From: Oscillospiraceae bacterium | GTDB taxonomy: Bacteria > Bacillota > Clostridia > Saccharofermentanales > Saccharofermentanaceae | NCBI GenBank assembly: GCA_902764825.1 | Contig: CACWXL010000003.1 | Location: 186,001-250,000 of the forward strand | Length of the DNA: 64,000 nucleotides | Reading direction: 5' to 3' | Shown here: positions 41,905-46,149 of the stretch, in pieces | How the letters are laid out: each line of letters starts with the position of its first letter | Numbering within the stretch: position 1 is the first letter of the stretch | The notes under the pieces: model-generated | What the model was told of the DNA's origin: nothing | Seen by the model: only the letters and a program-made list of their open reading frames with translations | The model's database searches: none | Translations under genes and position numbers: made by a program

Positions 41905-43617
41905 ATGCTTACTTTTTTGGGAAGAGGATCTGCATTTGCAGATGAGCATAACAGTGCCTTTTTCGTCGATAACGGTAATCTGATCCTTATCGATTGTCCG
42001 ATGAGTTCTTTCGAGAAACTCAACGACATGAACCTGACTTTGTTTGACCACATCTATCTGCTGGTCACACATACGCATGGCGATCATGTAAGCGGTATCG
42101 GGATGTTAGTCGATCTTCTTCAGTTCTCGGTAAAGACGCCGATCACGATCGTCGCACCTTCCAAGGAAGTCGAAGGCGATCTCTTCTATCTTCTCTCGAG
42201 GCTCGAAGGATGCAATGATTCATGGTATGAACTGATCAATTCGGAAGAGCTTGAGGCGGACTGGTTCGTTTGTCCGATCCAGACATCACACACCGAAGAG
42301 CTCGCCGGAAAATGCTTCGGATACTGCCTTACTGTCGAAGGCAACAGAGTAGTCTATACGGGCGATTCGAATACGCTCGTTCCTTACGAGAAATACATCT
42401 CAGACGGTTCTTATCTTTATGTTGAGATGTCTGCTTACAAGTCACCTGTGCATCTTTACTGCGTTGAAATGAAGGACAAGATAAAAGAATTCGTCGACAG
42501 GGGAGTTCACGTCTATCTGATGCATATGGATGACGAGAAGAGGATAGGCGAGGTCATGAAGGATACCGGCGCCGAGTTCGCGCCTCTCGAGAAGAGTGCC
42601 TTCACGATCCAGGATACGCCCAGAATGCTCGACGGCATCTTTACTATCACCGACAGCCTCTACAAGGATATGTGCATGAATAACAACACTGACCACCAGC
42701 TGTTGTTCTCATATCTTACCGAGCTCGGCAAGACGATCGTCGATGCCGACAGGGCAAGCTTCTGGAAGTGGGATAAGAGAAAGAACCAGATCTGGACAAT
42801 GTCCGCTACTGGTGTTGATAAGATCGTTATCCCTGATGACAAGGGTCTTGTAGGAAAAGCTTTAAGAAACAAGCAGCCGCTGATCACAAACGATCCTTAT
42901 AATGATCCTGATTTCAACAGTGAGGTCGATATCAAGACAGGCTATAAGACAAAGTCTGTTCTTGTCCTTCCGGTAGCTGATGTTAACGGTGATTTCATAG
43001 GCGCTCTTCAGCTTATCAATAAGAACGACGAGAACGGCTTCGATGAAGATAATGACCCCAAGAAGCTCTCTCTTGCTGCACTTATCTGCGGCATCGCTCT
43101 TGAGTCTGAGACGTTCCTGGAAGATTCCCACCACGACAGGCTTACGGGACTTAAGAACAGAATGGGCTTCTACTATGACTTCAGCAAGCGCTTCAGGGAT
43201 TATCTCATTTCCGGCTCCGGAAAGACCATGTCCGTATTTATATGTGATATCGATAAGTTCAAGCGCGTTAACGATACGTATGGTCATAACGCAGGTGATG
43301 ATGTCCTGATATTCACATCGCAGTTGCTCGAATCCTTCTGCTGCGAGAAGGACAGCGTTTACAGATGGGGCGGGGAAGAGTTCGTTATGGTCATGCGCGA
43401 TACGGATCTTGAAGGCGCCGTAAAGAAAGCCGAAGAGATCAGGCTCAAGCTTCAGGGATCGGAGATAGTTGCCGACGGCAATAAACTTAACTGCACGATG
43501 AGCTTCGGATGCAGTCTTTTCGAGCCCTCCAAGTCAATTGAAGAGAACATAAGCAATGCTGACGAGAGGCTCTATACGGCAAAAGAAACAGGACGAAACA
43601 AAGTATGTTGGGAATGA
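41905..43617 (+). CDS. Metallo-beta-lactamase-GAF-GGDEF diguanylate cyclase
   Basis: A 570-residue cytoplasmic three-domain protein. Residues 1-250: metallo-beta-lactamase fold with THTHGDHVSG (HxHxDH metal site) near residue 53 and YTGDSNT near residue 151, nearest RNase Z/phosphodiesterase-like members. Residues 255-405: GAF sensor (DADRASFWKWDKRKNQIW, GLVGKALRNKQPLITND, VLVLPVADVNGDFIGALQL). Residues 410-570: GGDEF with DRLTGLKNRMGF, FICDIDKFKRVNDTYGHNAG and an intact RWGGEEF active site, so c-di-GMP synthesis is likely. The RxxD inhibitory site is CEKD here, so feedback inhibition is probably lost. Two bases after the adenylate cyclase. Confidence 0.92.
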   Translation: MLTFLGRGSAFADEHNSAFFVDNGNLILIDCPMSSFEKLNDMNLTLFDHIYLLVTHTHGDHVSGIGMLVDLLQFSVKTPITIVAPSKEVEGDLFYLLSRLEGCNDSWYELINSEELEADWFVCPIQTSHTEELAGKCFGYCLTVEGNRVVYTGDSNTLVPYEKYISDGSYLYVEMSAYKSPVHLYCVEMKDKIKEFVDRGVHVYLMHMDDEKRIGEVMKDTGAEFAPLEKSAFTIQDTPRMLDGIFTITDSLYKDMCMNNNTDHQLLFSYLTELGKTIVDADRASFWKWDKRKNQIWTMSATGVDKIVIPDDKGLVGKALRNKQPLITNDPYNDPDFNSEVDIKTGYKTKSVLVLPVADVNGDFIGALQLINKNDENGFDEDNDPKKLSLAALICGIALESETFLEDSHHDRLTGLKNRMGFYYDFSKRFRDYLISGSGKTMSVFICDIDKFKRVNDTYGHNAGDDVLIFTSQLLESFCCEKDSVYRWGGEEFVMVMRDTDLEGAVKKAEEIRLKLQGSEIVADGNKLNCTMSFGCSLFEPSKSIEENISNADERLYTAKETGRNKVCWE

Positions 43618-45275: not shown

Positions 45276-45306
45276 GGCTATACCGGAACAATTACTTAAA
45301 CAATGA

Positions 45307-45336
45307 AGGGGCTGTCCTTATGGGGCAGCCTCTTTT
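45307..45336 (+). terminator. Terminator after hsp20
   Basis: AGGGGCTGTCC pairs with GGGGCAGCCTCT around TTAT, followed by TTTTT. Same hairpin type as those at 36939 and 44499. Confidence 0.85.
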
Positions 45337-45420: not shown

Positions 45421-46149
45421 ATGAAGAACATTACAGCAAAGATCTTGACTCTTGGCGTTACGGCAGTGCTTTTTACAGGTTGTCTTACAGCCTGCAAGGT
45501 TACAAACAACAGCAAGATAAATGCTAACGTTAAGGTAAACGGTGAAGAAGTGATCAATACTGAGATAGCTTTAGGCGCAGGTTCGTGGGAGGCTGCCAAA
45601 TCAAACACTGTTACAGATGAACTTAAGAAGTATTTCGATGACGCGATAAGCAAGCTCGACGGCTACAACCACACACCTGCTCTGCTCCTCGGAACACAGG
45701 TCGTTGCAGGAAAGAATTACTGCTTCCTTTGCACGTCTACCATCCAGGCAAACAGCGCAGCAAAAGAAATGAAACTTGCATATATCAACGTTGATCCTTC
45801 CGGCAACGCTACTTTCCTTAAGGATGATGTTTTAAAGCTTCCCGGTGTCGGTGATGACGGTGATAAAGTCGGCGGCTGGAGTTATGCAGAATCTGTTGAG
45901 ATAACGGACGATATCAAGAAGGTTATGGAGAAGGCAACAGAGACTTTAACAGGCGCAACATATGAACCCGTTGCATATATCGGTTCACAGGTCGTTGCAG
46001 GAACAAATCATGCGATCCTCTGCAAGAGCACTCCTTCAGTAGCTGAGCTCAACGGCGCAACGACATACGTACTCGTATATGTTTACCAGGATCTCCAGGG
46101 CAACTGCGAGATAACAGAGACAACAGATATTGAAATGAAAGTAAGTTAA
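45421..46149 (+). CDS. Lipoprotein with two cystatin-like domains
   Basis: A 242-residue exported lipoprotein (lipobox at FTGC or LTAC). Two similar domains of about 90 residues follow. Domain 1 has AGSWEAAKSNTVTDELKKYF, a helix, then LGTQVVAGKNYCFLCTST with Q93-G97. Domain 2 has GGWSYAESVEITDDIKKVME, then IGSQVVAGTNHAILCKST with Q190-G194. The N-terminal Gly, the helix, and a strand-loop-strand centred on QVVAG are the layout of cystatins and stefins, in which QVVAG is the first protease-blocking loop. Both copies are intact and 97 residues apart. It may inhibit cysteine proteases outside the cell; an unrelated role for a cystatin-like fold cannot be excluded. Confidence 0.78.
   Translation: MKNITAKILTLGVTAVLFTGCLTACKVTNNSKINANVKVNGEEVINTEIALGAGSWEAAKSNTVTDELKKYFDDAISKLDGYNHTPALLLGTQVVAGKNYCFLCTSTIQANSAAKEMKLAYINVDPSGNATFLKDDVLKLPGVGDDGDKVGGWSYAESVEITDDIKKVMEKATETLTGATYEPVAYIGSQVVAGTNHAILCKSTPSVAELNGATTYVLVYVYQDLQGNCEITETTDIEMKVS

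Follow-up and report, generated by a model that had tools for sequence, protein, structure and literature searches.

The question raised by this locus is whether a gut commensal carries on its surface an inhibitor of the cystatin type and, if it does, which proteases such an inhibitor would meet. The window, that is, the whole 64,000-nucleotide stretch of DNA analysed here, forms part of a contig of 412 kb in a genome of 3.0 Mb that is 99.9% complete. The closest named relatives of this genome are metagenome-assembled genomes tagged Saccharofermentans sp. or Ruminococcaceae/Clostridiales, which we take, from their RUG-series isolate names, to be rumen genomes. The features of the locus, in window coordinates, are as follows.

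45305..45335, + strand: terminator-like hairpin 3′ of the upstream Hsp20 gene (pattern match near chance, 1 found and 1.1 expected)
45421..46149, + strand: coding sequence (open reading frame, ATG start) of a 242-aa lipoprotein with two cystatin/stefin-like domains
45421..45495, + strand: lipoprotein signal peptide, read from the sequence, with the lipobox LTAC at 45484-45495 and the lipidated Cys25
45496..45579, + strand: flexible linker of about 28 residues (pLDDT below 50 through residue 29 of the mature model)
45574..45840, + strand: cystatin-like domain 1, about aa 52-140, with its GSW start at 45580-45588 (aa 54-56)
45697..45711, + strand: QVVAG of domain 1 (in TQVVAGKNY), first hairpin loop, aa 93-97
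45790..45807, + strand: second hairpin of domain 1, VDPSGN, placed by alignment with domain 2
45865..46143, + strand: cystatin-like domain 2, about aa 149-241, from the AlphaFold2 model, with its GGW start at 45871-45879 (aa 151-153)
45988..46002, + strand: QVVAG of domain 2 (in SQVVAGTNH), first hairpin loop, aa 190-194
46090..46104, + strand: second hairpin of domain 2, DLQGN, at the position of SLPGQ in stefin A (HMMER alignment)

The original prediction had described a surface-held bacterial lipoprotein with two homologous domains, each with a Gly-Trp-type start and an intact QVVAG, and both descriptions held. The lipobox has the form L-[TA]-A-C that is kept among relatives of the window protein, and this conservation places the lipidated cysteine at residue 25. 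The hairpin downstream of the Hsp20 gene, a match near chance level, suggests that the cystatin gene is a transcription unit of its own. No conserved operon partner of the gene was found in the relatives compared, and the neighbouring Hsp20, membrane protein, TetR and GntR genes are retained in closer relatives only. Elsewhere in the window, positions 41905-43617 encode a 570-aa protein that, by eye, resembles a metallo-beta-lactamase-type domain with GAF-like and GGDEF domains after it.

Two QVVAG motifs in the mature protein did not arise in any of 200,000 residue shuffles, and at least one arose in 63 of the 200,000; the 3.0-Mb genome contains QVVAGTN, in its DNA form, a single time. From retrieved loci of related genomes we gathered 140 distinct homologous domains, of which 111 have an intact QxVxG. 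The fact that QVVAG stands at the same position in both domains of the window protein and that the motif is intact in so many family members indicates that it is not there by chance. Loss nevertheless occurs, in up to 28 of 139 domains; counted per protein (n = 73), QxVxG is present in both domains of 40 and in exactly one of the two in 25.

AlphaFold2 modelling of domain 2 from an alignment of 16 rows gave a pLDDT of 88 and a pTM of 0.79. The model runs from a short strand through a helix to four strands (H16-26, E32-45, E47-58, E68-76, E82-90), and QVVAG forms the turn that joins the first two long strands. This predicted arrangement is that of the cystatin superfamily, one helix on a four- or five-stranded antiparallel sheet, and the outcome that would have told against the original prediction, a model lacking the helix on its sheet, did not appear. 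The best 14 PDB fold matches of the model were all cystatins (probability 0.97-1.00), with weak Foldseek E-values (best 5e-3) and TM-scores of 0.48-0.63. In the full-length model both domains are visible behind a disordered 29-residue start, and among the fold matches of this model are again cystatins, along with latexin and fetuin-B. The fold prediction may itself have drawn on the motif.

At the level of sequence, a profile of 45 domains (A1) searched against the PDB gave 23 matches up to E = 10, and 22 of these were cystatins or stefins (best E 7e-4); when single-domain bacterial stefin-like proteins were added, the best match was a secreted type-1 cystatin of Fasciola (E 5e-5). Masking of the nine motif columns left the family profile with no cystatin match in the PDB, so that similarity outside the motif was not detected by this search. 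The matches to cystatins thus depend on the motif, and sequence homology rests on the motif together with the predicted fold, the fold and the register of the other elements serving as further support. The Pfam Cystatin model (PF00031) did not match the window protein, gave nothing over the cut-off in its own genome or across 398 genomes of the phylum, and matched four of the 45 domain members weakly, below the cut-off (best E 0.014). Searches of Pfam, NCBIfam and PHROGs with the window protein likewise returned nothing above cut-off. The masked profile and the sub-threshold Pfam scores are what one would expect if QVVAG had arisen by chance or convergence within an unrelated fold. We regard this as very improbable, since the motif occurs in both domains and lies at the turn of two long strands in a model that matches cystatins, the start glycine and the second-loop L-x-G are in register with cystatins, and the shuffles never produced two motifs.

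Animals and plants block papain-like proteases with this fold and its loop, in their cystatins and stefins. In cystatins, the wedge that enters a protease consists of one or more N-terminal glycines, the QxVxG of loop 1, and loop 2, which is centred on Leu (LP) in stefins and is Pro-Trp in type-2 cystatins (PMC9986714, PMC7913475). The N-terminal trunk glycine is represented by G54 in domain 1 and G151-G152 in domain 2, and the first glycine (G1) is kept in 116 of 139 domains of the family. The second loop had been described as not obvious, a view that has to be revised: the family D-L-x-G is aligned by HMMER with S-L-P-G of stefin A, and DLQGN of domain 2 provides the Leu-centred hairpin of the stefin type (I25A), domain 1 having DPSGN instead. 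The second-loop glycine is present in 116 of 139 domains, the position two places before it holds Leu 75 times and Pro 17 times, and Pro-Trp, which would mark a type-2 cystatin (I25B), occurs in none of the 139. All three parts of the wedge, the start glycine, QxVxG and the second-loop L-x-G, are conserved across the family. Among the 111 domains with an intact QxVxG, the first glycine is kept in 101 and the second-loop glycine in 100; in the 45-row profile the Q, G and N of Q-x-V-x-G-x-N are invariant, and G1 and the valine of QxVxG are nearly so. The dN/dS of the gene is 0.15, with the lowest value, 0.10, at the wedge residues, and that of three neighbouring genes is 0.02-0.06. The cystatin gene is therefore under constraint, yet it evolves faster than its neighbours.

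Family columns W3, C51, P33 and Y31 are also very conserved and fall outside the known cystatin wedge; at columns 3 and 51 (W153 and the Cys of AILCK in domain 2) conservation equals that of the QxVxG residues. These positions bear on a reading in which the cystatin fold serves without protease inhibition, as a binding or structural domain pair whose loop is kept for another partner. Cystatin folds frequently lose inhibition, for example in vertebrate lineages (PMC2784779), and some domains of this family have no QxVxG. The wedge residues are nevertheless among the best conserved of all, and QxVxG persists in both domains of most of the proteins counted and in one domain of many others, so that we consider a non-inhibitory pair quite unlikely.

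The suggested search for homologues was made in related genomes. Homologues were found in 60 of 148 related genomes by protein search and in 59 by profile, and by profile 58 of the 85 genomes assigned to the same genus (rumen Saccharofermentans) carry relatives. Two domains are present in 71 of 79 open frames, a count in which some loci are the same gene retrieved twice. In a domain tree, first and second domains are mostly separate (13 label changes vs 50 in shuffles), and the duplication is therefore probably older than the species, although the resolution of the tree is low, with few columns and unsettled bootstrap. Further out, the profile matched 14 of 393 genomes of the class, own genus included, and three of 398 in a sample of the phylum, own genome among them. 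The distant matches include another exported two-domain protein (L083) and three proteins of about 93 aa without a signal peptide (L085, L086, L088); L102, from a collection of viral contigs, is of the same short type, also without a signal peptide. L085, L086, L088 and L102 look like bacterial stefins.

Viral contigs hold two distant relatives, possibly on prophage or host DNA, and a phage search gave one weak and partial match. One contig listed as viral encodes a surface-type protein of 1415 aa in which cadherin-like and Cu_amine_oxidN1 domains, together with weak matches to Big domains, are followed at the C-terminal end by a stefin-like domain (L101:3992-4246). A plasmid search with the window domain gave no match; with the stefin-like L102 it gave three distant ones, and stefin-like proteins that are unannotated or hypothetical were seen on plasmid records of Persicobacter, Aureibacter and Bradyrhizobium (CP012852.1:107439-107702; NZ_AP025306.1:399014-399265; AP014688.1:115794-116039). 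A short contig from a Planctomycetaceae bin encodes a two-domain relative that keeps QVVAG in its first domain only (L037:3204-3677).

We propose that the window protein is a surface-tethered, two-headed, stefin-like inhibitor of papain-family (C1) cysteine peptidases, a reading that we hold to be on balance probable. The export signal, the duplication, the predicted fold, the conserved wedge and the purifying selection come from computation; inhibition and an outside target we infer. The protein would be exported and lipid-anchored at Cys25, from which the linker of about 28 residues would hold the two cystatin folds away. In each domain three elements would form the wedge: the segment with the start glycine, the hairpin that bears QVVAG, and the second hairpin, which has L-x-G in domain 2. 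The wedge would then plug the catalytic cleft of a papain-like enzyme. By this putative inhibition the protein probably protects the cell from papain-like proteases or restrains the cell's own. The likeliest targets would be external: ciliate cathepsins in the rumen, papains of plants in the feed, or papain-like enzymes of neighbouring bacteria. In the rumen ciliate Entodinium caudatum, C01A peptidases are highly expressed and cathepsins B and F are found in the transcriptome (PMC6925433).

The own genome, however, also offers a candidate target. One C1 papain-family gene was detected in it, at G000:C18:36891-38369, and it encodes a 493-aa lipoprotein that has a lectin-like C-terminus and retains Cys, His and Asn at their expected positions (GGCYSYA, DHVATIVGW, QNSFGPFWG). 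This surface enzyme, together with C1 genes near the cystatin gene in three relatives, makes self-regulation a live alternative that the original prediction did not contain: by analogy with staphostatin and staphopain, though with a cystatin fold, the lipoprotein might hold the cell's own C1 lectin-like lipoprotein in check for as long as that enzyme is not required. In G008, G027 and G086 a C1 gene of this kind lies no more than 2.5 kb from a cystatin gene, in a different gene order each time, where 0.09 such cases were expected (p ~1e-4, for a distance chosen post hoc). The closest C1 orthologue is present in 16 genus genomes, all 16 of which have a cystatin (Fisher p = 0.002, ignoring kinship, and leaving out G048, a genome without cystatin that has a contig-end fragment of the orthologue). 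Against self-control, cystatins show no association with C1 genes taken as a whole (p = 0.49-1.0). Of the genus genomes with a cystatin, 33 reach a completeness of 90% or more, and in 14 of these a direct search found no C1 lipoprotein gene; G039, G046 and G081, each with a completeness of at least 95%, encode cystatins but gave no C1 gene by either search. In the own genome the C1 and cystatin genes are on separate contigs; the pairs in G008, G027 and G086 are all split by intervening genes; and the C1 neighbour in G027 has neither the catalytic Cys nor the catalytic His. Because there are cystatin-bearing genomes without a C1 gene and because Entodinium expresses C01A peptidases, we judge outside targets more likely than self-control, which is doubtful as an explanation and still a serious second.

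Two of these neighbourhoods deserve description in their own right. In G027 (contig C154; L105:4867-6168), the papain-family lectin-like lipoprotein has RDGWAMS in place of GGCYSYA and DRIVT in place of DHVAT, and its sequence makes it likely that the product is a pseudo-protease adjoining an inhibitor-like gene. In G086 (L106:4568-6872), the cystatin gene lies immediately 5′ of a sigma-factor gene and of a gene whose product is probably an anti-sigma membrane protein, and it converges with a C1 peptidase gene, an arrangement that is possibly an envelope-stress operon.

Extended from the single protein to the genus, the preferred reading of an inhibitor facing outward leads to a tentative proposal, possible but less likely than not, in which a diversified family of tandem lipid-anchored stefin-type inhibitors forms a surface shield of the genus against ciliate cathepsins and plant papain-like proteases, and in which one of the two heads has in some cases become specialised or been lost. 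If this is true, a eukaryote-type inhibitor would be standing anti-predator or anti-digestion armour in a commensal. The tandem surface-anchored form occurs in about two thirds of the rumen genus, and the family is large and almost unannotated; the window protein is a concrete case in which to ask whether inhibitors of the cystatin type are employed by commensals of the gut, and whether the target is ciliate, plant, neighbour or the cell itself. The cysteine peptidases of rumen protozoa are relevant to nitrogen loss in cattle (PMC6908469), which gives the question of the target practical interest.

The window protein shares with the animal stefins (stefin A/B; Fasciola FhCyLS-2, PMC9986714) a Gly-Gly start, QVVAG, a Leu-centred second loop and the predicted fold. 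Stefins of type I25A are cytosolic and have no signal peptide, whereas the window protein has a lipoprotein signal with a lipobox; a few eukaryotic stefins do carry a signal peptide (PMC2784779). It further differs from the animal proteins in being duplicated, in being a surface lipoprotein and in falling under the Pfam Cystatin cut-off. Plant multicystatins and kininogens also have several cystatin domains per chain, some of which lose the motif; their domains, however, are of the type-2 or phytocystatin kind with a Trp in the second loop, and they are not known to be lipid-anchored. Chagasin has a fold different from that of cystatins, and none was found in the own genome. It is the usual bacterial inhibitor of C1 peptidases (I42, PF09394; PMC2784779). 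Staphostatins, the model for self-control, are likewise bacterial inhibitors of papain-like enzymes but, according to a title cited in PMC12620975, have a lipocalin-like rather than a cystatin fold. Omp19 of Brucella (I38-related), which PMC12620975 mentions, is a bacterial outer-membrane protein that blocks a broad range of proteases, but its family and mechanism are unrelated to those of the window protein.

The nearest comparison is with the bacterial stefins, which were reported in 2009 together with the idea of protection from host proteases (Kordis & Turk, PMC2784779; MEROPS I25). They share QxVxG and the N-terminal glycine, occur in Clostridia as well as elsewhere, and have similarly been proposed to defend against host proteases. 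They were described as rare, patchy, single genes; a triplicated cystatin domain was reported in Polaribacter, and lipoproteins are nowhere mentioned in the text (PMC2784779). The stefin-like relatives L085, L086, L088 and L102 each consist of one domain of about 93 aa and have no signal peptide, whereas the window protein is tandem, lipid-anchored and much diverged. A full-text search of the open-licence literature revealed almost no work on bacterial stefins after 2009. As far as the literature searched shows, the following are new: the arrangement of two stefin-type domains in tandem on a lipid anchor, how common it is within a single rumen genus, the failure of Pfam, NCBIfam and PHROGs to recognize it, and the closeness of its genes to those of surface papain-like lipoproteins.
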